Origin: a virus
DNA: 40,816 nucleotides
Strand: one strand, 5' to 3'
IMG/VR virus record: IMGVR_UViG_3300009311_000010
Location: 1-40,816 of that record
The notes under the pieces were generated by a model. It was given only the letters and a program-made list of their open reading frames with translations. It searched no databases and was not told the origin of the DNA. The first letter of the stretch is position 1, and each line of letters opens with the position of its first letter. A program made the translations under genes and the position numbers. This document shows, piece by piece, positions 20,293 through 36,917 of this stretch.

Positions 20293-20425
20293 GCCTGTCA
20301 AGACTTTTTTTCTAAGGGCGCATGTATAGCCATTTTGAGAGCTTCTGGAAATTTCCAACTTTTCCGATCGGTTTCAATCGGTCCAGGATAAGAAAATCAA
20401 AACCTTGAAAAACCGCCCTATTTTT

Positions 20426-20576: not shown

Positions 20577-20602
20577 TCAGTTACATTATATGAGTAACTG
20601 AT
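20576..20602. repeat. 9-bp inverted repeat ATCAGTTAC / GTAACTGAT
   Basis: Exact inverted copies at 20576-20584 and 20594-20602 around ATTATATGA. The GTTAC...GTAAC arms recur in the dyad at 15389-15450, suggesting one regulator for both sites. Confidence 0.6.
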
Positions 20603-21010
20603 CAGGGCGGTTGAGAGGGTCTCCAAACCTCAATACTAGATCGCCGGGGGGCGCAAAAGGCAACAAGCCCGATAAGACAGTCCCGACAAGCTAAAAAGCT
20701 CACCGCAAACAGGCGACCCGCGCCGACTCGAGCCGAACTAAGCTTACAGCCTAGCAGAAAGGCTACAATATGGCCGCCGCGCTGGATAGTAAAGAAACAC
20801 CCACAGCGTAGGACGGTAGCACTTGCGACAGCGAATCGTAAGCAATCCGGGGATGGATACCCTGACGAGATTAATCAACGCTTGACGCCCTCACAGAGGG
20901 GCCACACAGCGGACTGCTTTAATCGACTCTCCGCCGCTCAGGCGGGGCGTAAAACTCCTGACACTGTACACGCTGAGTTTCAGGGGCTTTACGCTCATTC
21001 TGAGCTTTAA
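20603..21010 (+). ncRNA. Hairpin-rich GC segment upstream of the HNH gene: candidate structured RNA
   Basis: About 400 bases with no credible reading frame but higher GC than the surrounding control DNA and many local stems. These include GGCG/CGCC (20606/20642) enclosing TTGAG/CTCAA, TAGC/GCTA (20752-20765), CGCTG/CAGCG (20779-20808), CTTGCGA/TCGTAAG (20822-20842), CCCTC/GAGGG (20888-20900), CCGCC/GGCGG (20931-20945), and a 15-step stem with one mismatch (20947-20961 with 20980-20994). A GGCGCAAAAGGCAAC word at 20650 and the link to an HNH gene recall HEARO/OMEGA-type RNAs, from memory only. A long regulatory leader is the alternative. Confidence 0.4.
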
Positions 21011-21042
21011 TAAATTAAATTTTAAATAACGGGGATTTTAAA

Positions 21043-21441
21043 ATGGTTGATAGAAAAAAACGAAATCAGGGTATGAACTGGATAAGACAAAACAAACGGC
21101 TTGCGATCTACCTGAGAGACGGGCTTGCCTGCGTATACTGCGGGGCAACCGTCGAGGACGGGGCCAAGCTGACCTTGGACCACCTCAAGCCGCACAGTAA
21201 GGGCGGCGGCAACGAAGAAACAAACCTTGTTACATGCTGTCAAAAATGTAATAGCTCACGGGGCGTTCGCTCCGTAAGTGCTTTCTGTATGGTTGTGGCT
21301 CAATACCTGGACATAAGCGCTCAATCAGTATTGACTCACGTCCGGAACTGTTCAAAAAGAAGTATCAAAAAACACTTAGTCGAAGCCAACGCCCTCATTG
21401 AGCGGCGCGGCTCCGCTTCAAACGTTATAAACGGGGGATGA
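21043..21441 (+). CDS. HNH endonuclease, stand-alone
   Basis: 132 residues with a complete HNH core: CVYCG (C30, C33), LTLDHLKPHSKGGGN (D46-H47), N61 in TNLVTCC and a second CxxC (C66, C69) followed by N70. It nicks or cuts DNA and may act in homing, packaging or recombination. It lacks RuvC or PLMP domains, so it is not an IscB. It is the first plus-strand gene and has the ACGGGGATTTTAAA leader immediately before the ATG. Its stop is one base from the next start. Confidence 0.88.
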   Translation: MVDRKKRNQGMNWIRQNKRLAIYLRDGLACVYCGATVEDGAKLTLDHLKPHSKGGGNEETNLVTCCQKCNSSRGVRSVSAFCMVVAQYLDISAQSVLTHVRNCSKRSIKKHLVEANALIERRGSASNVINGG

Positions 21442-21442
21442 T

Positions 21443-21991
21443 ATGACAACCAAACAAGAACTTGCTTTTTTACTTTCAGGAATCGGTAACAATCCTACAC
21501 GGCGCAGTCTTACTTTTTTGCATATCAAGGTTGAAAGCTCAAAAACGGTCATGACCACTGCGAACGCATATATCATAAAACGCGTGGAGACTTGTTCAGA
21601 CATGGCAGACGGCGAGTATTTTCTCTCTGGCGAGTGTCTGAAGGCCGCTGTAAGAAAAGCAAAAAAGAAAAGTGCAATTCATTTTGACAAAAATGGTTTA
21701 CACGTTGACGATATTACCTTTACTTATAATGTTGACGGTATCGAGTATCCGAACCTTGACAGTTTAATGAACCCTCGCCGGTACGGCGGAACTCCGCCAA
21801 TAGACCGGATTGGTTTTATTCCGATATGGTTAATTGATGTTTTAAAAAACGCGCCGTCTGATGTTGTAAAGTTTTCATTTGATGCGAGTAGCCAACCAAC
21901 CGGCCACGGTTACGACGGTCCGGTCAAAATTGATTTTTATGGATATCCTGAATACGCAGCATTGATTATGCCGATTCGATTAAAATTTTAA
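21443..21991 (+). CDS. Shortened beta sliding clamp-like protein (DnaN domain 2 plus half of domain 3)
   Basis: 182 residues. The front part follows E. coli DnaN domain 2: LLSGIGNNPTRRSLTFLHIK, then VMTTANAYIIKR in place of VATDGHRLA, then GEYFLSGECLKAAVRKAKKK and the IEYPNLDSLMNP exit in place of RFPDYRRVLP. The tail follows the end of domain 3: GFIPIWLIDVLKNAPSDVVK and AALIMPIRLKF in place of YVVMPMRL. Domain 1 and the first half of domain 3 are missing (DnaN has 366 residues). It would tether the phage polymerase to DNA, perhaps as a higher oligomer. Alignment done by eye. Confidence 0.55.
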   Translation: MTTKQELAFLLSGIGNNPTRRSLTFLHIKVESSKTVMTTANAYIIKRVETCSDMADGEYFLSGECLKAAVRKAKKKSAIHFDKNGLHVDDITFTYNVDGIEYPNLDSLMNPRRYGGTPPIDRIGFIPIWLIDVLKNAPSDVVKFSFDASSQPTGHGYDGPVKIDFYGYPEYAALIMPIRLKF

Positions 21992-21994
21992 AAA

Positions 21995-22064
21995 GCCGAA
22001 ACGCCCGAGAGGGCGTCGGCCCCGTGTAGTGGCGGGGTCCTGACGATGGCAGCTATCCATTTTT
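21995..22064 (+). terminator. Two strong hairpins and a T-tract: terminator or attenuator
   Basis: GCCG-AA-ACGCCC pairs with GGGCGT-CGGC around a GAGA tetraloop (21995-22020). A second stem pairs GGCCCCG with CGGGGTCC (22018-22040), and the two compete for the same bases. TTTTTTT follows at 22060-22066. The competing stems suggest attenuation before the MoxR gene. Confidence 0.5.
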
Positions 22065-22099
22065 TTAAATAATATTCGAAACAAAACGGGGATGAACAA

Positions 22100-23149
22100 A
22101 TGAAACCGAGACAAGTAAAACGAGCAATTATCAAAGCGATACTTTCAAACACGCCGCTGTTTATATGGGGGCCGCCGGGCATTGGAAAAACTCAGATGGT
22201 CGCGCAGGTCGTCAGAGACATCAACGCTGGCAAGCTTGAGATTCCAGACTTTAACCATAAAAAAGAAAATTTTCACTTGATCACAGTCCCTTGTACCTTG
22301 ATCGATCCCGTTGAGTTGCTTGGCGGATTGAAGGTTGACGAGGTCACAAAATGGGTACGCCCTGAACTATGGCCCACTGACGAAAACTGGAAAGGCATCA
22401 TATTTTTTGATGAACTGAACGCGGCAATACCAGCCGTACAGGTCGCTTGCTACAGGCCCGCCGAGCGGGACCCGGACGGAACTCGCTGGATCGGAACGCA
22501 CAAGCTACCACAAGGCGTCCGCATCATGGCCGCCGGGAACCGCGACACGGACCGCGCCGTAACTCACAAAATGCCGAGTCCCTTACGGAGCCGCTACAAG
22601 CACATCGACGCCGAGCCTTTCTTTGAGGATTGGCTCTCGTGGGCCTATGAGAACGGGATCGCGCCAGTTGTTTGTGCGTGGATCTCATGGCATCCCGCTA
22701 TGTTGTTTAATTTTGATCCGAAAAAAGATCAACGAGCTTACGCCACAAGCCGCTCAGTGGCGGCCCTATCGGATGAATATTTGATAGGACTCGACAAAGA
22801 CACAGAGTTAGAGGATTGTTCGGGCGTTGTAGGTGACGAGGCTGCAATTGATTTTATATCCTTTCTAAGGATATTTGAGGATCGGGTTGATATCGAGGAC
22901 ATTGAGCACAACCCCGCCGGGGCTGAGATCCCGAGCGAAGCCGGAACGAAATATGCACTTTGCGCCGGACTCTCCATGAGAGCGGACGAGGACAATTTCG
23001 AAGCGTTCATTACCTACACAGAGCGGATTGGCGAGGAGTTCACATATTTATTTGTTTACTCAGCGAAAAATGCGAACCCGGACGTTGTCGCTACCGAGGC
23101 GTTTATAGATTGGGCCTCAAAACATAACGACTTTCATCAAGCTGCATAA
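22100..23149 (+). CDS. MoxR-type AAA+ ATPase
   Basis: 349 residues. Walker A WGPPGIGKT (24-31), Walker B IIFFDELNAA (101-108), sensor 1 Asn in MAAGNRDTD (N147) and arginine finger PLRSRY (R163/R165) are all intact. MoxR-type ATPases remodel partners that carry a VWA domain; such a protein is encoded two genes downstream. The ACGGGGAT leader precedes the ATG. It begins MKPRQVKR, close to the MKPI start shared by other replication proteins here. Confidence 0.9.
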   Translation: MKPRQVKRAIIKAILSNTPLFIWGPPGIGKTQMVAQVVRDINAGKLEIPDFNHKKENFHLITVPCTLIDPVELLGGLKVDEVTKWVRPELWPTDENWKGIIFFDELNAAIPAVQVACYRPAERDPDGTRWIGTHKLPQGVRIMAAGNRDTDRAVTHKMPSPLRSRYKHIDAEPFFEDWLSWAYENGIAPVVCAWISWHPAMLFNFDPKKDQRAYATSRSVAALSDEYLIGLDKDTELEDCSGVVGDEAAIDFISFLRIFEDRVDIEDIEHNPAGAEIPSEAGTKYALCAGLSMRADEDNFEAFITYTERIGEEFTYLFVYSAKNANPDVVATEAFIDWASKHNDFHQAA

Positions 23150-23177
23150 TTAAAAATACTTTAACGGGGATTTTAAA

Positions 23178-24119
23178 ATGACTATGAAACCGATCAGGCA
23201 AATAGGAAAAGCTACAAAAACGTTGGATGAAACCGCAATGCTTGTCCGCTACAACTGTTCTAAATGGGAGGGTAGAAAGTACGACAAAGCCGTCAGCGCC
23301 ACGGCGGCCCGTCAGTACAAGGCTCAGGACAAGGCCGGACGCTACAACAAATCACTTTTACCGCGCGGCTGGTTCAAGCCTATAGAGCGCGCGGCGAGCG
23401 AAGCTTACGAGTTCCATAAGACGAACACGCTACCATGGGGCGACAAGGGCGAGCGCGTCCTGCCAGCCATCAATTACTTTGATTACACAAAGGGCATGAA
23501 CGAAAAAATTGAAGCCTTTAACAAAGTAGTATCCGCACAGATCGAGATCTATGGAGACGCCATCAACGAGGCAAAGACTGAGAGCCTCGGCGATATGTTT
23601 GACCCGGCGGAGTATCCAACTCAAGTCGAGGTTGCTGAAAAATTTGTTATGGTTTACACAATTAGCCCGATTCCGACGGCTAACGATTTTCGCGTACCAA
23701 TGGAAAAGGGCCAATTGAAAGAGATCCGGGCACAGATTAAAAAGAATACCGAGGAGAGTCAAGCGGTAGCCATCAAGGCCCCACTGCAAAAGCTTTACGA
23801 TGAGGTTGCCCACTTAAGCGAACGGCTCGGAGCTTATTCTAAAGCCCCGGCTCCAAAGGGCGATGAGAAGCGAGGGCGCGGCGCACCGAAAGGCGGAACC
23901 CGCTTTAACAGCGACATCTTAGACAAGCTCGCGGACGTATGCGACTTGCTGCCGAAACTGAACATCACCGGGGACCCTGAACTTGAGCGGCTCGCCGCCG
24001 AGGCTAAGCGCAAGCTTACAAAGTACGAAGTCCCCGAGCTTAAGACTGACAACAAAAAACGAGAGGTCATCAAAAAGCGGGCCGACTCAATTCTAAAAGA
24101 CATGGGGGATTTATTATAA
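23178..24119 (+). CDS. Helical protein between MoxR and VWA genes, 313 aa
   Basis: Starts MTMKPIRQIGKATKTLDETA; the ACGGGGATTTTAAA leader directly before 23178 favours the first ATG. Largely helical and Lys/Glu-rich, with AINEAKTESLGDMFDPAEYP and PLQKLYDEVAHLSERLGAYS, a basic linker (KRGRGAPKGGTRF) and a helical tail. It is coupled to the VWA gene by a TAATG overlap. It probably bridges the ATPase and the VWA protein. I do not recognise a named family with certainty. Confidence 0.75.
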   Translation: MTMKPIRQIGKATKTLDETAMLVRYNCSKWEGRKYDKAVSATAARQYKAQDKAGRYNKSLLPRGWFKPIERAASEAYEFHKTNTLPWGDKGERVLPAINYFDYTKGMNEKIEAFNKVVSAQIEIYGDAINEAKTESLGDMFDPAEYPTQVEVAEKFVMVYTISPIPTANDFRVPMEKGQLKEIRAQIKKNTEESQAVAIKAPLQKLYDEVAHLSERLGAYSKAPAPKGDEKRGRGAPKGGTRFNSDILDKLADVCDLLPKLNITGDPELERLAAEAKRKLTKYEVPELKTDNKKREVIKKRADSILKDMGDLL

Positions 24120-25318
24120 TGGAACTTGTAAATAAAACAAAAGTTCAGCTAATAATGAAGGACGCCTTTTTCGGCAACCTACAACTAAGGCTGAATTTCA
24201 TCGAGGACCCGACGTGCGAGACCTACTGGACGGACGGCGTCACGATCGGGTTTAATCCCGATTTTGTTGAGAAGATAACCGGGCTACAGCGGCTTGGAGT
24301 ACACGCTCATGAGATCGCGCATGTATTCGGCAAGCATCACTTAAGGCGCGGCGAGCGAGACGAAAAAGATTGGAATACCGCCTGCGATTATGTCATAAAC
24401 CCTTTCCTGATCAAGCACGGCTACGAGCTACCACCCGGAGGCCGGTTAGATTGGGCCTATGCGGGCTTAAGCCCCGAGCAAGTTTATGACATATTACATG
24501 ATGAGAAAAAGGACTCCGATGATCAGGGAGACGGCGACGACTCTACGGACTCCGATGATCAGGGAGACGGCGACGGAGATCCGGGCGAGTGCGGCGAGGT
24601 CCGCGACTATCCCGGCGACCCTGAGACCGGCGAAGCCGCCACTCAAGCGGAGATGGACCGAGCCGAAAATGAGTTAGACGTTGCAATCAAGCAGGCCGCC
24701 GCGCAAGCAGAAAAGGCGGGCGAGTACGGCGAGGCCCTCCGGGACGTCGTCGACAAGGCGCTCGAGAGCAAGGTTGACTATGCTGAGATTTTAAAAATGT
24801 TTGTTGATAAGACTGCAAAAAGTGATTACCGTTGGAACCCGCCAAATAGGCGCTACCTAGCGCAAGGTATATATATTCCAAGCTTGAGATCGGATGATAT
24901 TTCATTGATTGCGGTATTTGTTGACGATAGTCCATCGCTCAATCACGAGTTACTTGAACAAGCTCTGGGCGAGCTTTCAGCGGTCATTGAGATCTATCCC
25001 AATTCTGAAGTTCTCGTGATCCCTTGCTCTAACGTGATCAACGAGAACGAGATCGAGACTTATACGACTCAAGATTTACCGCTTACCTACAACGCAAGCG
25101 GGGGCAGGGGTACAGATTTTCGCCCCCCGTTCGAATATCTGGACCGGGAAAACATAGACCCCGCTTGCGTTATTTACTTCACTGATCTGGAATGTCCAGA
25201 GGATCGATGGCCTGACCCTCCAAGCTTCCCGGTCCTCTGGGCCTACCTTCGCAAGCCTTGGCGAGCGGAGCCGCCCCCCGTCTACTTCGGTGAATTTGTC
25301 GAAGTAAACGCGGATTAA
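24119..25318 (+). CDS. Putative metallopeptidase plus VWA-like domain protein (DUF2201 type)
   Basis: 399 residues. The N-terminal domain has a zincin-like HEIAH (64-68) with a following D/N-rich region. The linker (about 130-165) is extremely acidic. The C-terminal VWA domain has a full MIDAS: DDSPS (DxSxS type) in VFVDDSPSLN, Thr in GGRGTDF and Asp in YFTDLECP. DUF2201 proteins pair with MoxR ATPases, as here. Whether the zincin is active is unclear. A strong terminator follows the gene, so the trio ends one transcription unit. Confidence 0.85.
   Translation: MELVNKTKVQLIMKDAFFGNLQLRLNFIEDPTCETYWTDGVTIGFNPDFVEKITGLQRLGVHAHEIAHVFGKHHLRRGERDEKDWNTACDYVINPFLIKHGYELPPGGRLDWAYAGLSPEQVYDILHDEKKDSDDQGDGDDSTDSDDQGDGDGDPGECGEVRDYPGDPETGEAATQAEMDRAENELDVAIKQAAAQAEKAGEYGEALRDVVDKALESKVDYAEILKMFVDKTAKSDYRWNPPNRRYLAQGIYIPSLRSDDISLIAVFVDDSPSLNHELLEQALGELSAVIEIYPNSEVLVIPCSNVINENEIETYTTQDLPLTYNASGGRGTDFRPPFEYLDRENIDPACVIYFTDLECPEDRWPDPPSFPVLWAYLRKPWRAEPPPVYFGEFVEVNAD
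24511..24575 (+). repeat. 29-bp perfect tandem repeat (period 36) in the acidic linker of the VWA gene
   Basis: The 29 bases at 24511-24539 are repeated exactly at 24547-24575 and encode DSDDQGDGD twice. The exact DNA identity points to a recent duplication, so linker length may vary between relatives. Confidence 0.8.
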
Positions 25319-25322
25319 TTTT

Positions 25323-25369
25323 CGCCCCTACACTCCCTGAAAAAGGGTCTGTAGGGGCGGAACTTTTTT
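25323..25369 (+). terminator. Rho-independent terminator after the VWA gene
   Basis: CGCCCCTACA (25323-25332) pairs exactly with TGTAGGGGCG (25350-25359). The CCCT/AGGG inner stem and an A-rich loop close it, and TTTTTT follows at 25364-25369. It is the clearest terminator in the window. Confidence 0.88.
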
Positions 25370-25412
25370 GCATTTAAGCCCCTTATTTAAATAATTATAC
25401 ACGAGGTACAAA

Positions 25413-26057
25413 ATGCCAAAACGAACAGAAACAACGCTCCGCCGTCGAATTGAAATTGTTGAATATATTTTAAAGCTCAAAGCTGATGGCACGAAAGGAG
25501 CTTTAGCGTCTACATGCCGTATAGCAGGGCTTACAGAGGGAGCCGTTAATCGTTGGATAAAAGATTTTAAAGAAGGTTTATACGAGAATTTGACAAGCAA
25601 GCAACTTGATGGTTGTACACGCCCTGCAACAAAGACTGTAAAGAAACAAGTCCCGGACCCTTGTCAACTCGAGATCCCCGAGGACATGCCCGCTGACGTC
25701 CGTGAACTCAACGCCCGCCACGCTTCGCAAGCACAGATCCTAGAACTGTCTCTCACAGGGCTTCAGAACATGCTCGGAAAAACTAACGAACATCTCTGTA
25801 ACATGATAAATACACAACAAGAAACAAACCAGATCCTTTTGAATTATGTTGAGCCTGTTGACGCTATACTGGCTGTATTAGGGGGGATCAATAGTTCGAT
25901 GAACCCCGAACCTCTCCTAGAGATGCTCGGCGGGATTAAGGTTAAAATTGAGGGCGTCAAAAGGGGACTTGCATTGCTCATGAATCCAACCGGCGATTTA
26001 ACCGACGACGAGCGCACTTATATCAAGGCTATAGACGATGTTAAAAATGACGGATGA
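25413..26057 (+). CDS. Helix-turn-helix protein with C-terminal coiled region, 214 aa
   Basis: The N-terminal 60 residues form a transposase-type helix-turn-helix: TLRRRIEIVEYILKLKADG, then STCRIAGLTEGAVNRWIKDF. The rest is helical, with LELSLTGLQNMLGKTNEHLC suggesting an oligomerisation coil. It is the first gene after the terminator at 25369, so it begins a new unit; a TTGCAT / TAATTA pair at 25368-25398 is a weak promoter candidate. It could be a regulator or an origin-binding protein. Confidence 0.65.
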   Translation: MPKRTETTLRRRIEIVEYILKLKADGTKGALASTCRIAGLTEGAVNRWIKDFKEGLYENLTSKQLDGCTRPATKTVKKQVPDPCQLEIPEDMPADVRELNARHASQAQILELSLTGLQNMLGKTNEHLCNMINTQQETNQILLNYVEPVDAILAVLGGINSSMNPEPLLEMLGGIKVKIEGVKRGLALLMNPTGDLTDDERTYIKAIDDVKNDG

Positions 26058-26250
26058 CCTGAACCCCGCCAAGGAGCGGGTCGAGATCCATCGCAAGATG
26101 AATCAACTTATCAAAAATCGAATGACCTTGCCGGACCCCGATCCACGGCGGGATGAAATCAACCTACTGCTTGAGGCGCTCGGGGCGCTGCTCGAGCTTT
26201 ACAAACAAATGGAGATCAATGAAACCGATTGGAAAAAAAACACGGGCTGA
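26047..26250 (+). CDS. Small helical protein, 67 aa
   Basis: Start set at the ATG at 26047 (MTDDLNPAKERVEIHRKMNQ), overlapping the upstream stop; an ATG three codons upstream is also possible. Predicted two-helix protein with LLLEALGALLELYKQME. Its 3-prime end overlaps the next start. Function unknown. Confidence 0.6.
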   Translation: MTDDLNPAKERVEIHRKMNQLIKNRMTLPDPDPRRDEINLLLEALGALLELYKQMEINETDWKKNTG

Positions 26251-26818
26251 TCCAATGGAGGCCCACGCACAGGCCCCGACTCAGACGGAGCTTAGTCACT
26301 TCACAAAATTGTGTCGTGACATGGTAGCCCTAAACGAGCGGCTCTATGGTGAGATCGAGGCCGCGAAAAAAACTCAGGAAAAGTTGAACGAGTTACGACT
26401 CAAAACTATTCCTGATTTTGCCCGCTCTGTGGGCATTGATGAGATAGGGGTTGACGGGGTCGGACGGACCTTGATCAGCCATCAGTACGTCGCCAACCTG
26501 ACTGATCAAAACCGGGCGGGGGCGATTAATTGGGCCTTGACGGCGGGCCACGGCTCGATCGTTAAAAAGAAAGTCGAGATTGAGTTCGATCCAAAAGATA
26601 AACTTGATGGAAAAAAGTTCATGAAAATCATTAAGTATGTCGAGGCCCTCGAGCTTGACCACAAGGCCACTCAGACGATCAACGCGCAGACGCTTAAGAA
26701 GTTCGTTCGCGAGCGGATCGAAAAAGGTGATCCTGATTTCAATCGTAAACTGTTTGGCGTTTACGAGGTTCGACAGATTGAAATCAAGGGCGTCAAAATT
26801 AATAAAATTAAAACATAG
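26219..26818 (+). CDS. Conserved phage replication-module protein, 199 aa
   Basis: I choose the ATG at 26219 because it begins MKPIGKKTRADP, matching the MKPI N-terminus of four other genes, and has GGAG four bases upstream. An ATG at 26255 is the alternative. The N-terminal coil (LCRDMVALNERLYGEIEAAK) is followed by DFARSVGIDEIGVDGVGRT, and a later domain with GHGSIVKKKVEIEFDPKD and KKFVRERIEKGDPDFN. I recall this layout from many lytic phages, just before the ssDNA-binding-like gene, but know no function. Confidence 0.65.
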   Translation: MKPIGKKTRADPMEAHAQAPTQTELSHFTKLCRDMVALNERLYGEIEAAKKTQEKLNELRLKTIPDFARSVGIDEIGVDGVGRTLISHQYVANLTDQNRAGAINWALTAGHGSIVKKKVEIEFDPKDKLDGKKFMKIIKYVEALELDHKATQTINAQTLKKFVRERIEKGDPDFNRKLFGVYEVRQIEIKGVKINKIKT

Positions 26819-26831
26819 GAGCTTTTAAATC

Positions 26832-27068
26832 ATGATAAAAGATCAAGGTGAAAAGGTCACCGCAAACGATTGGGCTAAGTCCCTTATAGTGACGGGCGCG
26901 GAGCGGTTCGCTCGAAAGTGGCACGATATTTTCGAGGCCGAGGCCGCTGATATGACCGCTAAGGAAAAAGCGGACGTCAACCGGATGGCTGAGAAACAGC
27001 TAAACCGTGTCGTGAAGATGATCTACCCGGACGCCGATCCGGTCGAACTCCCGGACCTCGATGTCTAG
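26832..27068 (+). CDS. Small helical protein, 78 aa
   Basis: MIKDQGEKVTANDWAKSLIV followed by two charged helices (TAKEKADVNRMAEKQLNRVV) and a Pro/Asp-rich tail. A TAGGAG ribosome binding site lies 10 bases upstream. Its end overlaps the next gene by eight bases. Function unknown. Confidence 0.65.
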   Translation: MIKDQGEKVTANDWAKSLIVTGAERFARKWHDIFEAEAADMTAKEKADVNRMAEKQLNRVVKMIYPDADPVELPDLDV

Positions 27069-27282
27069 GGCGCTCGTGTCGAACTGGACCGAGTGTAATA
27101 GTTGTTTACGTTGTACTTTTCGTAAGGCTACTATACTCCCTCGGGGACAGGGACGCCATTGGGCGCTTGCTCTCGTGACATGGTGCGGCCTCACCCGGCA
27201 AGAGATTGGGAACTTATTAAAAATAATGCGTCTCGAGTCTTGCCCTTTATTTGAAATAACTCAAACGGAGATTTTAAATTGA
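27061..27282 (+). CDS. Small Cys-containing protein, 73 aa
   Basis: Cys motif CNSCLRC (about 13-19) followed by basic residues and TRQEIGNLLKIM, a short helix. It overlaps both neighbours by a few bases (eight and four), the pattern of a real coupled gene, although it has no clear ribosome binding site. The Cys cluster with a following GQG faintly recalls the start of iron-sulfur uracil-DNA glycosylases, but the rest is absent. Possible zinc or Fe-S mini-protein. Confidence 0.5.
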   Translation: MSRALVSNWTECNSCLRCTFRKATILPRGQGRHWALALVTWCGLTRQEIGNLLKIMRLESCPLFEITQTEILN

Positions 27283-28085
27283 AACCCATCAGTGGAAAAT
27301 CGAAGCAAGTCCAGACACGGGAGGCCGCTGGCGTCCCTGTAGTGGCGGACTTCGAGCAATACGCAGGCGACGGGGGCGAGGGCATAACCCCTCACGACCT
27401 GCCACGAGCGGCGTTAAAGATAGCTCACAAAATGAGCGACGTTTGCGAAAAACGATCCGACAAATGGATCGAGGGCCTTGAGCCAGGGATGATTTACAAC
27501 GCCTCTACGCGTGAGTTCTGGCCCGCTGTCGATGAGGACGGGGCCGAGGGTGTTCTGATAATCCCGGTTAAATATGTCAATCATGTAATTGAGTGGCAAC
27601 CCAACCGGGGCGGCTTCGTAGGCGAACACCCTCCCGGCGCTCCCATAACAGAGGGCGCGGAGTGGATTGAAGATACGCAAGGCAAGCGCCATTGGGTAGC
27701 AGAGAACGGGAACGAGCTTGTTGATACAGCCTCGTTTTATTGTTTCTTAATCAAGTCTGACAATACTCACGAGGAGGTTATTATCGATATGGCCTCTACG
27801 CAGTGGGAGACGGCTAAGAACTTCAACGCGTTTATGAAATCTCGTAAACGCCCATCCAGTAAGAACCCGGCGAAGTCCTTCAAGATGCCTTTCTATTCCA
27901 GCGTGTACAGAATGTTTACCCGCTATAAATCAAACGATGAGGGCGACTGGTACGTTTGGAAGTTCGAGCATCGCGGCGAACTCAAGCTGGACAAGGCTCC
28001 ACAACTGACCCTTTTTGAAGCGGCTGTGAAGTACAAGGCCCTCATTGATAAGGGCGAGGTCGAAGTAGAACGCGATCAAGATTGA
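27279..28085 (+). CDS. Probable ssDNA-binding or replication accessory protein, 268 aa, TTG start
   Basis: The TTG at 27279 is chosen because ACGGAGATTTTAAA sits exactly where it does before the ATGs of other genes, and it yields the MKPI start (MKPISGKSKQVQ). The protein has the pattern of a common phage replication family: WIEGLEPGMIYNASTREFWP, VLIIPVKYVNHVIEWQPN, TASFYCFLIKSD, a KNFNAFMKSRKRPSSKNPA region and a GDWYVWKFEHRGEL strand. Members lie beside polymerases and may have an OB fold; the role is inferred. A small hairpin terminator candidate follows. Confidence 0.65.
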   Translation: MKPISGKSKQVQTREAAGVPVVADFEQYAGDGGEGITPHDLPRAALKIAHKMSDVCEKRSDKWIEGLEPGMIYNASTREFWPAVDEDGAEGVLIIPVKYVNHVIEWQPNRGGFVGEHPPGAPITEGAEWIEDTQGKRHWVAENGNELVDTASFYCFLIKSDNTHEEVIIDMASTQWETAKNFNAFMKSRKRPSSKNPAKSFKMPFYSSVYRMFTRYKSNDEGDWYVWKFEHRGELKLDKAPQLTLFEAAVKYKALIDKGEVEVERDQD

Positions 28086-28093
28086 TCCCCGGC

Positions 28094-28120
28094 TCCCGCC
28101 AATAGCGGGACCATTCTTTT
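28094..28120 (+). terminator. Hairpin with short T-run after the ssDNA-binding-like gene
   Basis: TCCCGC (28094-28099) pairs with GCGGGA (28105-28110) around a CAATA loop, followed by ATTCTTTT. Probably a partial terminator. Confidence 0.5.
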
Positions 28121-28147
28121 AATTATATTTATACGGAGATTTTAATT

Positions 28148-28789
28148 ATGTCTGAACAGGAAATTTTGCAAAGTATCCGGGACGTTGTAAAGCAATTTAA
28201 CGCGCCTGGAATCAAAAAGAAAACCGGAATCCAAACTATTAAAATTCCGGCAAAGGCGACACTTGCTGAGACTGTGGAAATCGTCGGGGACGCTGTCGGC
28301 GAGATTGAGAATCTTGATCAAGTACCCGAGGAACTTGTACAGGAATATGACGAGGTTTGTCTACAGGTCGCTGAGTGGCAGGAGGACAACGAGGACGCTG
28401 TCGAAACGCCACCGGAAGGGGACGAAGAAGCACCACTTCCAGACACGCCACCTGAAGAGGTTGACGAAGACCCACTTCCAGATCCGCCAGCAGAGGATGA
28501 GAACGACGGAACCGAGGGCGATATACCTAAAACCCGGATCGGAAAGAAAGGCGCGCCTCCGGCTGAGCCAGCCACCACAGATCCTTTACCTGATGTACCG
28601 GCCACTAAGGCCCCAGTGGCAGAGGTCGTAACAGAACGGATAACGACCCCCGAAGCTGTGACAGAGCGTATATGGTCCCCGCCTATAGCCCCATCAGGCA
28701 AAGGTTTACAGATTTGGCTAACGCCTGAAAGAATCGAACAAATGAGTCCCGAAACTGCAAAGGCCCTGCTACTGGCGCTTGCCAGCTAG
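28148..28789 (+). CDS. Pro/Glu-rich protein, 213 aa, unknown
   Basis: Folded-looking N-terminal part (about 1-75, including IKIPAKATLAETVEIV), then a long disordered acidic Pro-rich region with DPLPD/PLPDTP-type repeats, and a C-terminal APSGKGLQIWLTPERIEQMS helix. The ACGGAGATTTTAA leader precedes the ATG. It could be a flexible recruiter in the replication complex, since SSB-like proteins also use acidic tails, but there is no family match. Confidence 0.7.
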   Translation: MSEQEILQSIRDVVKQFNAPGIKKKTGIQTIKIPAKATLAETVEIVGDAVGEIENLDQVPEELVQEYDEVCLQVAEWQEDNEDAVETPPEGDEEAPLPDTPPEEVDEDPLPDPPAEDENDGTEGDIPKTRIGKKGAPPAEPATTDPLPDVPATKAPVAEVVTERITTPEAVTERIWSPPIAPSGKGLQIWLTPERIEQMSPETAKALLLALAS

Positions 28790-28799
28790 GTATCTTTAG

Positions 28800-28817
28800 C
28801 GCCCCTCTATTGGGGCG
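28800..28817 (+). terminator. Short hairpin between 28148 and 28843 genes
   Basis: CGCCCC (28800-28805) pairs with GGGGCG (28812-28817) around TCTATT. There is no T-run, so attenuation or RNA protection is more likely than full termination. Confidence 0.35.
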
Positions 28818-28842
28818 TTCACAACATTTGATAAGGTGAAAA

Positions 28843-29142
28843 ATGAAAGCTGGATTATTCAAACAGCTCCGCGCTTTACTTCAAATGAACTTGCTGTTTT
28901 CGATCGATAATCTGATCAGCTTGACAGGCCACAGTAATACCTATATAAGTGAAGGTATTAGTAATTTGCAAAACCCTCACAGGTGCGGCGACGGTGGCCC
29001 GTTGGTTTTAAAGCGAGTTCGAATAAAGCGTGAAAACTATTGGGGCCACGAGGAGGCGCTCACGTTCTACGATGTAGTAGAAAGCGCGCCAGAAAGGGCC
29101 GCCAAAATTCTTGAGGCTCTCGACAATGATGAAACCAATTAG
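28843..29142 (+). CDS. Small helix-turn-helix-like protein, 99 aa, upstream of the polymerase
   Basis: MKAGLFKQLRALLQMNLLFS, then SIDNLISLTGHSNTYISEGI, which reads as helix-turn-helix (the GHSN turn and YISEGISNLQNP second helix), and basic strands after it, as in a winged helix. AAGG precedes the ATG. Its last 17 bases also encode the MMKPI start of the polymerase. It may regulate or load the polymerase. Confidence 0.6.
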   Translation: MKAGLFKQLRALLQMNLLFSIDNLISLTGHSNTYISEGISNLQNPHRCGDGGPLVLKRVRIKRENYWGHEEALTFYDVVESAPERAAKILEALDNDETN

Positions 29143-31135
29143 ACAAGGGCCACCCTTTGTCTTTGCAAACCCCTACGAGGGGAGTCATTACGTCGCCGCG
29201 TATGATGTTGAGACTTATCCAAATTATTTTTGTGCCGTCTTTATAGGGCCAAAAAACAAACCTAAGCTTTACACTATGAAAAACATAGAGGAGCTTCGGA
29301 GCAATTTAAATAATCGCAAACTGATATTAATTGGTTTTAACAATATCTTTTTCGATGATTACATTTTAAAATATATTGCCTCTACTCCAAAGCCTAAGTG
29401 TCAGGACATCTACGACCTTGCTGAGGAGATTATAAACGGGGACAATAACAAGCGCTCTAAATTGTATTGGTCCCTATGGCGTAGGCGTACCTCGTGGGCG
29501 TTCTCGCTCGATACCTTCGCTGTGCCGACTGCAAAGATCGGACTCAAGGAAAGGGCCGCGCGTCGCCATTGGGTGAAAATTCAAGATCTCCCAATCAAGC
29601 CGGGGACAAAGGTCAACGGTATGCAGCAACGCGCCCTAGAGCGCTACTGCGAGAATGACGTCCGTGTCACGATCGCCGAGTGGAATGACGCTCAGGAACA
29701 CTTTGCCATAAGGCGTGATCTATCTGAGACTTACGAAGGGGCCGACGTCCTAAGTAAGCACGACGCTGGCGTCTGCGAGGAGATCATTACAACGCTTTAT
29801 TGCAAACGAACCAAGCAAGCTAAAAAGTTTATCAAGTCTCAGATCGCTCCGGGCGGGGACGTAATCCCAATGGCCGACGCGATCCCTGAACTGATAAGCT
29901 ATAGTCATGAGGTTCTCATGGACTTGCTCGGTGAGCTATGTCAGAGCGTGGGCCAGTTCGTTTATGATGGTCACGAGAAAACTTTTACGATCGGGGGAAT
30001 GAGATTTTATAAAAATTTCGACCTCGATTATTTAAATATAAACATGGGATCGGGGGGCCTTCATTCAAACGACAAGCCCCTGATCGCCAACTCAGACAAG
30101 GGCCATGCAATTATTGATGTTGATGTGGCCTCTTATTACCCAAATATTATCCGGGCGCTCGAGCTACGGCCATCTCATCTAGGGCCAGTGTTTAACGAGA
30201 TCCTTGAGGAGATCACAACCGAGCGACTACGCGCCAAGGCCGCCGGGGAAAAGGTCCGGGCGGACGGGCTGAAAATTGTAATCAATTCAGCTTTTGGAAA
30301 AACGGGTAATAAATATTCGATCCTGTTTGATGAGCGTGTTCAGCTACAGGTCACGCTCGCGGGCCAGCTTATGATCCTCATGCTGCTTGAGGATTTGCTC
30401 AAGGCGAAGATCAAAATTCTGTCTGCTAATACCGACGGAGTAATCGTCAAGGTCCCTCGTATGCGGGTTCCACAGCTTAAGAAAATTATGCGTAAGTGGG
30501 AAGCCGCTACAGGACAAGCGTTAGAGGATACCGAATATCAGCGATATATCAGGCGTGACGTGAATAACTATATTGCTGTGAAGTCCGACGGGATCGCTAA
30601 AGAGAAGGGTGTATTCAAGCGCGAGATCCGTGGTAAGGCGTCTATCATAGCCGAGGCTGTAAGAAAATATTTTCTTGAGGGTCTCGAGCCTAGTGCCTGG
30701 ATAGAGGTCGAAAATGATATACGACCCTTTATTTTTTATGCTCACGTTGCCGGAAAATTTAAATTAGAATTTTATCAAGGTCGACGTGGCACAAAACCCC
30801 TTCAGAACACGACTCGCTGGTATGTCTCTACAGGAGTCGAGCTAGTACCGGGGCGCGGTTATCGTCCCTCGGCGAACGTTGGCCGGATAGTCAAGTACGG
30901 CGACATGACTGAGAAAGAAAAAAATCGTTATATGAATACGCATGGCACAGCCGAGCATCCCGAGAACTGGATCAAACGCGAGCGTATAGCGAACGGATCA
31001 AACGCGGTCCCTGTTAATGGGACTCTACCAGAAACCATTCCTGACGACCTGAACCGGTATTATTATATCAGGCAGGCTCAGGAAATTATTAACTCTATAG
31101 AAACGGAGATCAACACAAATGAAAATTCGAATTGA
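29126..31135 (+). CDS. Family B-like DNA polymerase with 3-5 exonuclease
   Basis: 669 residues from the ATG at 29126. Exonuclease motifs: I YDVET (D27, E29), II around FFDDY (D77-D78), III YCENDV (Y174, D178). Polymerase motif A is DVDVASYYPN (catalytic D333), B is KIVINSAFG (K383, N387, G391), and C is ANTDG (435-438), where the canonical first Asp of DTD is Asn. It copies the genome. The order exonuclease-palm and overall length fit a compact phage enzyme. It starts MMKPIRQ and overlaps the preceding gene by 17 bases. Family firm; activity depends on motif C. Confidence 0.92.
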   Translation: MMKPIRQGPPFVFANPYEGSHYVAAYDVETYPNYFCAVFIGPKNKPKLYTMKNIEELRSNLNNRKLILIGFNNIFFDDYILKYIASTPKPKCQDIYDLAEEIINGDNNKRSKLYWSLWRRRTSWAFSLDTFAVPTAKIGLKERAARRHWVKIQDLPIKPGTKVNGMQQRALERYCENDVRVTIAEWNDAQEHFAIRRDLSETYEGADVLSKHDAGVCEEIITTLYCKRTKQAKKFIKSQIAPGGDVIPMADAIPELISYSHEVLMDLLGELCQSVGQFVYDGHEKTFTIGGMRFYKNFDLDYLNINMGSGGLHSNDKPLIANSDKGHAIIDVDVASYYPNIIRALELRPSHLGPVFNEILEEITTERLRAKAAGEKVRADGLKIVINSAFGKTGNKYSILFDERVQLQVTLAGQLMILMLLEDLLKAKIKILSANTDGVIVKVPRMRVPQLKKIMRKWEAATGQALEDTEYQRYIRRDVNNYIAVKSDGIAKEKGVFKREIRGKASIIAEAVRKYFLEGLEPSAWIEVENDIRPFIFYAHVAGKFKLEFYQGRRGTKPLQNTTRWYVSTGVELVPGRGYRPSANVGRIVKYGDMTEKEKNRYMNTHGTAEHPENWIKRERIANGSNAVPVNGTLPETIPDDLNRYYYIRQAQEIINSIETEINTNENSN

Positions 31136-31547
31136 TTTGAAGTGGCCCTTAGTCTTTGACAACGCCTCTCAGGTCCGCACAGCTTACAAATTACTCGAGA
31201 TTAATGGGCTGGACCTTGTTGTTCAACACTCCCAGGACGCGGCTCAGGTTAAACAGATTATTATCGATGGGTCTCCGATCCCTCTACGATTGATCCCGCG
31301 AGAATGGTATAAAACACTCGTAGATCCTTTTCAACAATTTTTAGAATCGCATGTCATAAACAACCTCGCAGATGGCGAGGCTCGAGAGATTTGGGATGGC
31401 GCTCAAGAGGCTTTGAAAGAGGAGTTACGCGATATCTCTTATGCAAAAAAATTCCATAAAGAGATCCATCCCGCTCTAAGCGAGACCACAGCGTTTTTAA
31501 ATTGGGACATGATCTTAAGACTTATCGGAGTCGTTGACGATGAGTGA
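31119..31547 (+). CDS. Uncharacterised protein after the polymerase, 142 aa
   Basis: MKIRIDLKWPLVFDNASQVR opens a mixed protein with a helical C-terminus (GAQEALKEELRDISYAKKFH). It starts 17 bases inside the end of the polymerase gene, with a GGAGA site at 31105-31110. Context suggests a replication accessory role; no family recognised. Confidence 0.7.
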   Translation: MKIRIDLKWPLVFDNASQVRTAYKLLEINGLDLVVQHSQDAAQVKQIIIDGSPIPLRLIPREWYKTLVDPFQQFLESHVINNLADGEAREIWDGAQEALKEELRDISYAKKFHKEIHPALSETTAFLNWDMILRLIGVVDDE

Positions 31548-31986
31548 AAAAAGGTTGATCCAAAAATTCAATCTGGTTATGAGGCCTGAATGGGTCTCCT
31601 ACCAGATCGAGAGTCCCTCTACTGCGCGGGGCTTCCCTGATCGCTACTTCGCGGTTGAGGGCCGTCACGGTTTGATTGAGTTTAAATACCTTCCGCGATG
31701 GCCCTCACGACCTCATACAATTGTGAAGATTGAACACTACACAGCTCAGCAAAAAGCCTTCATTAATATCTGCGGATCAAAGGCCGGGGGTGGGGTGTTC
31801 CTTGTGATTCAGATCGGGGCTGATGTCCTGATCTTTGATTGGGAGGGCGCGCAGAGAGTGGGCCGGATGAAACGATATCAGATGGACCGTGTCTGCATTT
31901 TTAGATTTAACACTTCCCGTTTTTCCAGACCCGTCCTGAGAGAGGGTCTACGGATGGAAATTTTAAAGGTTTTAAAAAATGGTTAA
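31540..31986 (+). CDS. VRR-NUC-type nuclease
   Basis: 148 residues from the ATG at 31540 (GGAG ten bases upstream); a TTG two codons upstream is less likely. The PD-(D/E)xK core is visible: GFPDRYF (D34) and GLIEFKY (E47, K49), with an ESPSTARG lead-in and TAQQKAFINIC helix, as in VRR-NUC proteins. It probably cuts branched DNA, so it may resolve replication or recombination intermediates before packaging. Confidence 0.88.
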   Translation: MSEKRLIQKFNLVMRPEWVSYQIESPSTARGFPDRYFAVEGRHGLIEFKYLPRWPSRPHTIVKIEHYTAQQKAFINICGSKAGGGVFLVIQIGADVLIFDWEGAQRVGRMKRYQMDRVCIFRFNTSRFSRPVLREGLRMEILKVLKNG

Positions 31987-32227
31987 AGACACTTGTACAG
32001 CGGTGACTCTACTTGTCCTGTCAGTAGTGATCACCGTCCTGTTATATCTGCAACTGAGGCCCCCGCTTGTGTCGGTGACGACTGAGCATGGTCTTAATTG
32101 TGTAACTTTTCGCAGTGGGTCCGGGTCCTGTAATTGGGCTAAGTGGAACAATGACACTAAGTTCGGAGCCTATCCCTACGCGGTTGACGAGGAGCATAAA
32201 AATGGCAAAAAAGAAAACGCCTTATGA
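31979..32227 (+). CDS. Small membrane protein with N-terminal helix, 82 aa
   Basis: One hydrophobic helix (about 8-26, AVTLLVLSVVITVLLYLQL) then a small Cys-containing outer domain with GLNCVTFRSGSGSCNWAKW. It overlaps both neighbours. Helix-then-soluble layout resembles spanin inner subunits in size only; location among replication genes argues for another role, such as exclusion or host membrane interaction. Confidence 0.6.
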   Translation: MVKDTCTAVTLLVLSVVITVLLYLQLRPPLVSVTTEHGLNCVTFRSGSGSCNWAKWNNDTKFGAYPYAVDEEHKNGKKENAL

Positions 32228-32489
32228 GCTTGTGAAAGGGCTTAAAAAGAAACCCTTCGGCGCAAAGCGCTTTCAGATCAGCAGTGAGGAGATCCGGGAA
32301 CAGGTTGATATTTATTTATCCCGTGGCGGAAAAATTAAAAAGATCGACGCAAGCGACCTCGCAGCAAGGCCCGTCGACGCTATCTATTTCGGGGGATTGT
32401 ATAATCCTGACATCTACGAGACTGATATGCTTTCAGGGCGACGAGTCCCTCCGGCCCCGCGCTATGACAGGGGATGGGGGGATATATGA
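32202..32489 (+). CDS. Small basic protein, 95 aa, upstream of the helicase
   Basis: Start set at the ATG at 32202 (MAKKKTPYELVKGLKKKPFG), with GAGGAG nine bases upstream; an upstream frame without a site exists. The N-terminus is very basic, followed by KRFQISSEEIREQVDIYLSR, and the C-terminus is Pro/Arg-rich. Its stop overlaps the helicase start as ATGA. Likely a nucleic-acid-binding partner of the helicase; no family recognised. Confidence 0.65.
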   Translation: MAKKKTPYELVKGLKKKPFGAKRFQISSEEIREQVDIYLSRGGKIKKIDASDLAARPVDAIYFGGLYNPDIYETDMLSGRRVPPAPRYDRGWGDI

Positions 32490-34138
32490 AACCTATTGTC
32501 AATTTCAAATTCAAAACAAAACCCTTTACACATCAGCTAAGGGAGTTCATCCGCAATAAGAATACCGAGTACCACGCCTTGCTGTGGGACATGAGGACGG
32601 GTAAGACTAAACTTGTTTTAGATAAAGCCGTTTATCTCTATGAACACAATAAGATTGATCTTCTCGTGTTCATAGCCCCGAACGGGGTCCACCGCGATCA
32701 TGTTTTAGATCAGGCCCCGCAGCACGTCGGGATCGAGTACGACGCCGCTTATTGGAACGCGACCCCACGCAAGGCTGAACGCGAGGCCCTTGAACGCGTA
32801 GGCAATCCTGACAACCATAAGTTCAAAATTTTGACGTTCAATACGGACGCCGTCAGGTACAAGCGCCGGGAGCTTAATCGTGGGTTTACTTTTTTGATGG
32901 ACACGCTAAACGTTCACCGGGCGCTGGTTGCCGTCGATGAGTCCAGCGACTTCAAAGGCGCTAAATCTCAACGAGTGGCGGGCCTGCTTCAATTGCGGGA
33001 CTACGCCGAGTATAGAATTATTATGGACGGGACGCCCGTCACGCAGGGGCCTTGCGATCTTTTTCATCCTTGCGAGTTTTTGTCTCCGGGCGTTCTCGGA
33101 TATACAAGCTTTACCGCTTTCCAGGCTCGCTATGAAGTGCTTGTCAACCCGTCTCTGAAGCTAGATTTTTTCAAGGTACTTGTAAAGTCCCCGCCCGGAA
33201 AGCTCCGCGACGAGGAAAAATTTTATGTTGATTTGTTTTATCAAATGAAAACCCGCAACGAACCACTCACCGAAAAGATCCTACGGGCCAGCATCCCCGA
33301 CCGGCTTCACAAGCGGATCGGTTCGATCCTGTCGACCTATCACCGCTCTATTGTGTATCGTGTAGCTTATAAAAACATCGATGAGTTAAACGCTGTCATA
33401 GAGCCATTCTCGACGAGGGTCCTCAAGCAAGAGGTGTTCGACATGCCGTCTACGGCTCACAAGAAAATTTACTATAAGTTGCCGGGCAACGTCAAGCTAA
33501 TTTATAACAAGCTTGTGGATGAGCTAATCACGCGAGTCCAGAATGAACAGATGTCGGCCCTTAACGTACTCACCCTTTACTTGAGGCTTCAGCAGATCCT
33601 CGGCGGGTTTTATGTTGCCGACACTGATCCTGAAACAGCGAAGCCGATCCCCGGCGAAAACGCTCGAATTAAATTATTGCTACGGTATATTAAAAAGATT
33701 GACGACCGAGAAAAAATAATTGTGTGGTCGCGATTCGTGCCAGAGATCGAGGCAATTCTAAAGTCCCTCGAGAAGGAGTTCGGCAAGGATTCTGTCGTAG
33801 ACTACTACGGGGCAACGCCCGCCATCAAGCGTGACGTCAATAAGCGCCTGTTCAAGGACCCCTACGGACCACGCTTTCTTGTCGGCAACGCTGACGTTGG
33901 GGGCCTTGGTTTAGATCTGAGCGCCGCTAATTATATGTTTTTTTACTCTCGATCGTTCAAGCTACGCACTAACAATCAGGCGCAGGAGAGATTTCTGTCG
34001 CCGTCGAAGCGTACCAGCTCGACTGTCGTGAGTATCATCGCGGAGGACACAATAGATCTAAAAATTGTGGAGTCCCTACAGAACAAACAGGACGTCGCCG
34101 ACGTCATAACCGGCGACTTTTTAAGGTTGGTCAAATGA
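32486..34138 (+). CDS. SNF2-like helicase
   Basis: 550 residues from the ATG at 32486 (MKPIVNFKFKTK). Motif I is WDMRTGKTK (36-42), motif II VAVDESSDFKG (DESS, 151-154), motif III IIMDGTPVT (180-184), then VVDYYGATP, motif V VGNADVGGLGLDLSAAN and motif VI QAQERFLSPSKR. The RecA-like pair matches SNF2/DEAD-like phage helicases. It unwinds or remodels DNA during replication or recombination. Its ATG overlaps the preceding stop, so it is co-translated with the small basic protein. Confidence 0.88.
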   Translation: MKPIVNFKFKTKPFTHQLREFIRNKNTEYHALLWDMRTGKTKLVLDKAVYLYEHNKIDLLVFIAPNGVHRDHVLDQAPQHVGIEYDAAYWNATPRKAEREALERVGNPDNHKFKILTFNTDAVRYKRRELNRGFTFLMDTLNVHRALVAVDESSDFKGAKSQRVAGLLQLRDYAEYRIIMDGTPVTQGPCDLFHPCEFLSPGVLGYTSFTAFQARYEVLVNPSLKLDFFKVLVKSPPGKLRDEEKFYVDLFYQMKTRNEPLTEKILRASIPDRLHKRIGSILSTYHRSIVYRVAYKNIDELNAVIEPFSTRVLKQEVFDMPSTAHKKIYYKLPGNVKLIYNKLVDELITRVQNEQMSALNVLTLYLRLQQILGGFYVADTDPETAKPIPGENARIKLLLRYIKKIDDREKIIVWSRFVPEIEAILKSLEKEFGKDSVVDYYGATPAIKRDVNKRLFKDPYGPRFLVGNADVGGLGLDLSAANYMFFYSRSFKLRTNNQAQERFLSPSKRTSSTVVSIIAEDTIDLKIVESLQNKQDVADVITGDFLRLVK

Positions 34139-34416
34139 AAAATTTAATATCAAAGATATTTCCAGGCGGGAATAAAGAATCCCCACCGCAAGCGGATGGG
34201 GTATTCGGTTGCTTAAGTAACATCTTACACCTACGCCGCAAGCGGCGGGGTATTAAACCCAGGCTACGCAATAAAAAACCTTCAGAGTTGCTAGACCCCC
34301 ATCGCCAGACTGACGACAAGGATCTAATAATTTTGACTAGCCTTGAGGATCGGATTACTTATTCAATCCCACTCCGAGAATTAATTAAATATTTAGAGCA
34401 ACGATTATTTAATTAA
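34135..34416 (+). CDS. Small basic protein, 93 aa, at the end of the replication module
   Basis: MKNLISKIFPGGNKESPPQA, then a very basic middle (HLRRKRRGIKPRLRNKKPS) and an acidic-to-hydrophobic tail ending RELIKYLEQRLFN. Two REP-like hairpins (34181-34254) lie inside the coding sequence. Its ATG overlaps the helicase stop, and its end meets the convergent DUF5675 gene by 12 bases. Unknown function; the coding sequence may have been altered by the repeats. Confidence 0.6.
   Translation: MKNLISKIFPGGNKESPPQADGVFGCLSNILHLRRKRRGIKPRLRNKKPSELLDPHRQTDDKDLIILTSLEDRITYSIPLRELIKYLEQRLFN
34181..34254 (+). repeat. Two REP-like hairpins with CAAG tetraloops
   Basis: CCGCAAGCGG-AT-GGGGTATT (34186-34205) and CCGCAAGCGG-C-GGGGTATT (34236-34254) are near copies about 50 bases apart. 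Each folds on a CAAG loop; the first extends to CCCCA/TGGGG with one bulge (34181-34201), the second is CGCCG/CGGCG (34234-34247). They resemble bacterial REP palindromes and may derive from the host. Confidence 0.6.
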
Positions 34417-35738: not shown

Positions 35739-36917
35739 TTACATTACTCCTTGAAAAGGGGCCGCCGGAACTGTAAACGTATCCGTCACGCCTACGTTTG
35801 GAGCCGCCCCGTATGGGTTGTTATAAGAAATATGCAAATCAGACAACCTACCGTTGTGGTAATTTACTGCACCCCCATATCTAGCAATCGCAAACACACC
35901 CGACAAAGTATCAACAGTCCAACTAGCATTTGCGGCCCAATCTTCTTGAACCCCGTTTAAATAAATCCCGACATCTCCCAAGACTCTTACAACTACTATA
36001 TGATGCCATGTAGCCGCTGTGAGTTGAGTTGTGGTGTCTATAACAAGGTCAGCGACACCAGCGGCATTATCAAAAAGCATCGTAGCCAAATTTCCCGCTG
36101 TTTTATGTAACCGCCATTCATTATTTGCATCTTCAAAGTGACTTAAATAAGTTTCAGCACTGCCTTGAGCGTCATGATAGACCCATAAACCTATAGTCAT
36201 ATCACCTGTTTTTATCCCTAAAACATCCCAGTCCGCTGAATCGCTGTATTGTAAGTATTCATCTGCGCCGTTAAATTCCCACGAACCCATTGGAAATTTT
36301 GAAGTAGTTATTTGCCTTTGAAATGGTTGTGCAAATAAAAGTCCTGTTTTTGTTTCCGTTCTATCTAATGCTGACGCCGTTGCCGCTGACGCCGCCGCAT
36401 ATACAGAGATCTGGCTCATTGGTTCGTATAAAACCAGACCCTCTATTAAGACTTTTCCGCCGGTCTTATAAATAATATCCCATTTCGTCTGAGAGTGCTG
36501 ATAGCGCACGGCTATGATGGTTCCCTTGTCGGGCATCTCTACGCCATAACCCGCGCCACTATTCCAAACGTGGTCCGTGTCTGAGACTGCGAGCGTGAGA
36601 GTATAGAAAGAATCGTTTGCGACCCATATCACAAGGCCATCCTCATCAGAGCCGACTGAAGGTAAAGTAAAAGTTTTGTCCCCGGCCGCCGTGGCCCCTA
36701 ACTCGATCATGTTTCCTAGGTCCGTTGTAAGGATCGTGTAGGACCCCGTCTTGACGGTCTTTGTACCAAGGCCACTTAAAAAATTCCGCAGTTCATTCGC
36801 GGTTATTTTTTTCGTCTCGTCGTTAGCAATGTCTACAATAGGCAGCACATCATTGGCCCCTATTATACTCGCCCCTGTGAGGGCTGTAAGCTCTGTTATC
36901 TTTTTATCAACTGCCAT
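35739..36917 (-). CDS. Tail fibre protein with LamG-like C-domain (paralogue 2)
   Basis: 392 residues. N-terminal anchor MAVDKKITELTALTGASIIG and ETKKITANELRNFL (about 1-47); a beta module (about 52-150) with TILTTDLGNMIEL, TFTLPSVG and DHVWNSGAGYG; a GKVLIEGLVLYEPM linker; a concanavalin-like domain (about 205-392) with GADEYLQYSDSADWDV, TWHHIVVVR and HISYNNPYGA. It is the same length as its upstream neighbour and shares the same layout, so the two arose by tandem duplication. It should bind the host surface. Confidence 0.82.
   Translation of the reverse strand: MAVDKKITELTALTGASIIGANDVLPIVDIANDETKKITANELRNFLSGLGTKTVKTGSYTILTTDLGNMIELGATAAGDKTFTLPSVGSDEDGLVIWVANDSFYTLTLAVSDTDHVWNSGAGYGVEMPDKGTIIAVRYQHSQTKWDIIYKTGGKVLIEGLVLYEPMSQISVYAAASAATASALDRTETKTGLLFAQPFQRQITTSKFPMGSWEFNGADEYLQYSDSADWDVLGIKTGDMTIGLWVYHDAQGSAETYLSHFEDANNEWRLHKTAGNLATMLFDNAAGVADLVIDTTTQLTAATWHHIVVVRVLGDVGIYLNGVQEDWAANASWTVDTLSGVFAIARYGGAVNYHNGRLSDLHISYNNPYGAAPNVGVTDTFTVPAAPFQGVM

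Follow-up and report, generated by a model that had tools for sequence, protein, structure and literature searches.

The tetrapeptide MKPI recurs at or next to the start of five genes in the replication-type module of one uncultured virus record, and this repeat is a real and unusual feature of a single genome. The stretch of DNA analyzed (here called the window) is that record, at its full length of 40,816 bases. Motif enrichment had been proposed as a check in a preliminary description of this DNA, and it bore the observation out. MKPI falls within the first 12 residues of 5 of 61 window genes, compared with 2 of 3427 background genes (Fisher p=2.8e-8), the background being 215 other phage loci with mechanically called genes and the count being neutral as to start choice. 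In none of the 116 other loci of 15 or more genes did more than two genes have a Met-tetrapeptide in common. When any tetrapeptide is allowed, together with threefold freedom in choosing starts, one would expect ~6e-5 such repeats among 61 genes and 1.6e-7 among the 20 early genes. These counts argue that the pattern did not arise by chance. A reader choosing starts to fit the pattern could have helped chance along: for two of the five starts a better placed start codon lies further upstream, and five occurrences were also reached in 2 of 5000 random 61-gene pools (which include orthologues). However, the start-neutral count still gives p=3e-8 and the look-elsewhere expectation is as low as given above, and we regard this explanation as very improbable. 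Another tetrapeptide, MTDE, starts three minus-strand genes (4196, 12625, and 17775); random pools sometimes give as much.

The module occupies 21,043–34,416 on the plus strand and encodes an HNH endonuclease, a clamp-like protein, a MoxR ATPase, a DUF3150 protein, a DUF2201 metallopeptidase/VWA protein, Pam3 gp33- and gp34-like proteins, a family B polymerase, a helicase-associated protein, and a SNF2-type helicase. The MKPI genes, all on the plus strand, are a DUF3150-like gene (23178–24119; relatives are annotated DUF3150), a Pam3 gp33-like gene (26219–26818; MKPIGKKTR; DUF7307/phrog_2378), a Pam3 gp34-like gene with a TTG start (27279–28085; MKPISGKSK; PF23977, E=1e-40), the family B DNA polymerase (29126–31135; M-MKPIRQGPPF; phrog_1252, E=5e-140), for which a fold search confirmed family B and gave nothing beyond, and the SNF2-type helicase (32486–34138; MKPIVNFKFK; PF00176 and PF00271, phrog_62). 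Because Pfam and PHROGs place these proteins in five unrelated families, paralogy was rejected as the source of MKPI. A polymerase, a SNF2 helicase, and an ssDNA-binding-like protein had been named among the set; PHROG and Pfam matches support the first two. The product of 27279 matches Pam3_Gp34/phrog_2402, of unknown function, and the matches did not bear out an ssDNA-binding-like identity. The small protein encoded directly before the helicase, at 32202–32489 (+), matches the SutA RNAP-binding domain below threshold (26.2 bits; cut-off 29.3). Outside the module, 35739–36917 and 36942–38120 on the minus strand encode adjacent paralogous 392-aa proteins with similar N- and C-termini.

The MKPI codons were found where they had been placed: ATGAAACCGATC at 23184 (MKPIRQIGK), ATGAAACCGATT at 26219 (MKPIGKK), TTGAAACCCATC at 27279 (MKPISGK), ATGAAACCAATT at 29129 (MKPIRQG), and ATGAAACCTATT at 32486 (MKPIVNF). 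Over both strands of the window, [ATG]TG-AAR-CCN-ATH has six occurrences: these five starts and one place in non-coding DNA. As had been noted, no two of the Pro-Ile codon pairs are the same; the Pro third base is G, G, C, A, and T and the Ile third base C, T, C, T, and T, in a phage whose use of the four Pro codons is nearly even. The starts at 23184 and 29129 have MKPIRQ in common, and their three base differences are all synonymous. The Lys codon is AAA each time, although 46% of the phage's Lys codons are AAG. The MoxR-type AAA+ ATPase gene (22100–23149, +; phrog_1297, E=2e-76; AAA_5) begins with ATGAAACCGAGA, or MKPRQ; it has MKP and ten motif bases in common with the five but no MKPI. 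The Pro-Ile codon variation had been taken to mean selection on the peptide and not copied ribosome sites. The statistics, the differing upstream contexts, and the free codon third positions favor that view, but the codon argument is partly circular, as the sites were chosen by peptide, and the sixth copy discussed below raises a reading at the RNA or DNA level.

The choice of start codon determines whether MKPI is strictly N-terminal. At the DUF3150-like gene, which is preceded by CGGGGATTTTAAA, ribosome-site spacing favors 23178 over 23184 (ACGGGGATTTTAAA-ATG ACT ATG), and the product is likely MT-MKPIRQIGK, with MKPI encoded at 23184–23195. At the polymerase gene, spacing favors 29126 over 29129 (GAGG-9 nt-ATG ATG). 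Since 23178 and 29126 are better placed behind ribosome sites, the two products are probably MT-MKPI and M-MKPI. Five proteins had been said to begin with the motif, two of them after an MT prefix or an extra Met; an exact N-terminal MKPI is likely in three, with one or two residues probably before it in the other two. For the helicase, the spacing of a G-run favors 32486, while the mechanical caller took 32474. The starts at 26219 and 27279 had been thought to rest partly on the pattern itself; mechanical calling also picks 26219, and the TTG at 27279 is independently backed by CGGAGATTTTAAA directly upstream, spaced as at 21043 and 23178. Three starts do lie in overlaps, as described: 26219 (with an ORF ending at 26250), 29126/29129 (29142), and 32486 (32489).

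The sequences upstream of the starts differ, and a copied ribosome-site cassette was rejected on these grounds. More broadly, the starts may have been copied between genes by recombination, or early-codon preferences (AAA at codon 2, low structure) may have made them converge, and there would then be no tag. The starts at 23184 and 29129 do resemble each other beyond MKPI, as do the 26219 start and the non-coding copy. An A after the start codon is favored across bacteria (PMC5850271), and 17 of the 61 window genes have MK among their first 12 residues, compared with 173 of 1842 background genes. However, Pro-Ile is not a product of general codon preference, 26219, 29126, and 32486 have no ribosome sites in common, and recent copies would retain third positions. 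We therefore consider copying or convergence unlikely.

The sixth copy, TTGAAACCGATCGGAAAAG (20312–20377, minus strand), would encode MKPIGKVGNFQKLSKWLYMRP followed by a stop codon. It sits in the non-coding switch region in inverted orientation, shows complementarity to three of the five starts, and is identical to 26220–26236 at 16 of 17 bases, a match to the 26219 start that was never reached in 150 and 120 shuffles. On the plus strand, 20364–20381 could form a hairpin, CCGAU-CGGUUUCA-AUCGG (fold −3.9 kcal/mol), and the loop CGGUUUCA of this putative structure is complementary to UGAAACCG. Among 20 starts, those with the strongest predicted duplexes with 20364–20381 (+) are 26219 (−30.9 kcal/mol, z −5.0), 23178 (−26.0 kcal/mol, z −3.8), and 27279 (−25.7 kcal/mol, z −4.1); the duplexes with 29126 (z −1.4) and 32486 (z +0.2) are unremarkable.

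A signal at the RNA level is the main rival to a docking role for the peptide. A nucleic-acid signal, AUGAAACCNAUY, would lie over the start codon with the peptide as a by-product. Binding of this signal, either by a translational repressor of the phage, as with T4 RegA, or by an antisense RNA made from the switch region, would co-control the replication genes. Several observations point this way: the window contains GAAACCNAT at six places, namely the five starts and the one non-coding spot, that spot resembles the 26219 start and has a possible hairpin on its plus strand, three starts give the strongest predicted duplexes, and the MoxR gene has ATGAAACCGA without MKPI. TGAAACC, the candidate RegA-like site, is found over six gene starts, counting the TTG at 27279. 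About 30 T4 mRNAs, those of replication genes among them, have a RegA site overlapping the AUG; such sites have no clear sequence conservation, whereas in this phage the coding frame is conserved (PMC3014915). Against the RNA signal, the free Pro third base breaks pairing in three of the five starts, 29126 and 32486 show no notable pairing, and a consensus scan found no promoter-like or terminator-like site on the plus strand flanking 20364–20381. Of the early proteins and the primase that were compared with Pfam and PHROGs, none matched RegA. On balance, we view an RNA-level start signal as possible but doubtful.

We tentatively favor, at somewhat under even confidence, a lineage-specific N-terminal docking motif on the replication proteins. 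Selection on the peptide would maintain MKPI as a short linear motif, N-terminal or nearly so, in five replication-region proteins that are otherwise unrelated. Carried on a flexible tail ahead of a folded domain, it would most likely dock these proteins on one shared partner, for which the phage clamp-like protein, the MoxR/VWA pair, or a host factor are candidates, and docking would gather the proteins into one complex or control their lifetime. Along the lines of the preliminary description, we infer a role in recruitment, sorting, or stability. Alignments place MKPI before the conserved domain in the helicase, the polymerase, and the gp34-like, DUF3150, and gp33-like proteins. In AlphaFold models of two of the five, residues 1–20 of the polymerase and 1–12 of the DUF3150 protein have pLDDT <50, and these tails are probably disordered, though low pLDDT is also expected from missing homologous sequence. 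The polymerase has an extension of ~22 aa ahead of its exonuclease domain; many relatives begin at or near that domain and most lack the extension, so the tail looks like an addition. A position ahead of the domains, in a probably disordered tail, would suit a linear tag.

The statistics, the unrelated families, the varied Pro-Ile codons, the synonymous differences between 23184 and 29129, the differing upstream sequences, the location of three starts inside overlaps, the polymerase extension, and the low-confidence tails thus count toward a docking motif. Counting against it are its restriction to one genome, orthologues (at 20–36% identity) that lack it, and the one or two residues that probably precede MKPI in two proteins. 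A peptide tag does not predict ATGAAACCGA in the MoxR gene, where it encodes MKPR, or the near copy in non-coding DNA, and the constant AAA Lys also counts against it. It is likewise conceivable, if rather doubtful, that MKPI is an N-terminal address peptide common to the replication proteins. A single receptor of the phage or the host, perhaps the MoxR/VWA pair, would read it, and the polymerase, the helicase, and accessory proteins would thereby be gathered or turned over jointly.

The relatives found for the module are distant. MKPI is absent from orthologues of its proteins, which are only 20–36% identical; polymerase relatives reach at most 35% identity among the matches listed, and DUF3150 relatives about 30%. 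Scans with single proteins (polymerase, MoxR, and terminase) gave no close relatives, the 20 kb of the window that were tested had no DNA match in the phage collection, and a DNA pattern of ribosome site plus MKP gave no hits. The packaging and head genes, encoding the GpA-type terminase, portal, S49 protease, and capsid, are in the same order as in Casjensviridae phage AXY1, and a 6.7-kb record, L125, has a capsid region protein-identical to that of the window. A different pattern, of a ribosome site, led fortuitously to a first capsid relative, whose capsid gene then gave many more (L125–L204, 53–70% identity). Of 50 such records searched, many of them fragments, none had a polymerase of this type and three had weak partial helicase matches. 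Since the records searched carry other replication modules in place of this one, the module appears to be swapped as a block.

Shared terminal docking motifs of replication proteins have precedents in clamp-binding peptides and in the partners of the SSB tail. Like MKPI, these are short peptides on a flexible terminal tail that are common to unrelated replication proteins; MKPI differs in being N-terminal and of fixed sequence, and we know of no clamp or SSB motif that resembles it. Among protease signals, the N-terminal ClpX motif is Met-basic followed by hydrophobic residues. By sequence, the Met-Lys of MKPI fits this motif, and Pro at position 3, Ile, and variable residues then stand where its hydrophobic run would be. 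The Met-basic start is a point of likeness; a candidate AAA+ reader would be the MoxR-type AAA+ protein that this phage encodes. ClpX recognition motifs are found at N- or C-termini (PMC5415555). A literature search on a shared N-terminal phage motif found nothing relevant. If the docking motif is real, a set of unrelated viral replication proteins would carry one peptide label, which would provide a direct handle on the assembly or regulation of a phage replisome and a pattern, N-terminal tetrapeptides repeated within one genome, for which every phage genome can be screened. If the RNA reading is right, the signal would represent compact translational control of a whole replication module.

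Two further stretches in this part of the genome may also be recorded. Ahead of the HNH gene, 20600–21040 (+) comprises ~440 bases with no ORF of at least 60 aa; it had no Rfam match, and a structured RNA there is possible. Between the clamp-like and MoxR genes, at 21994–22058 (+), lies a type II hammerhead ribozyme with its conserved core present (RF02276, 59.9 bits; gathering threshold 37). Hammerheads of type II occur commonly in bacteria, and intergenic hammerheads are known in phages (PMC3088659).
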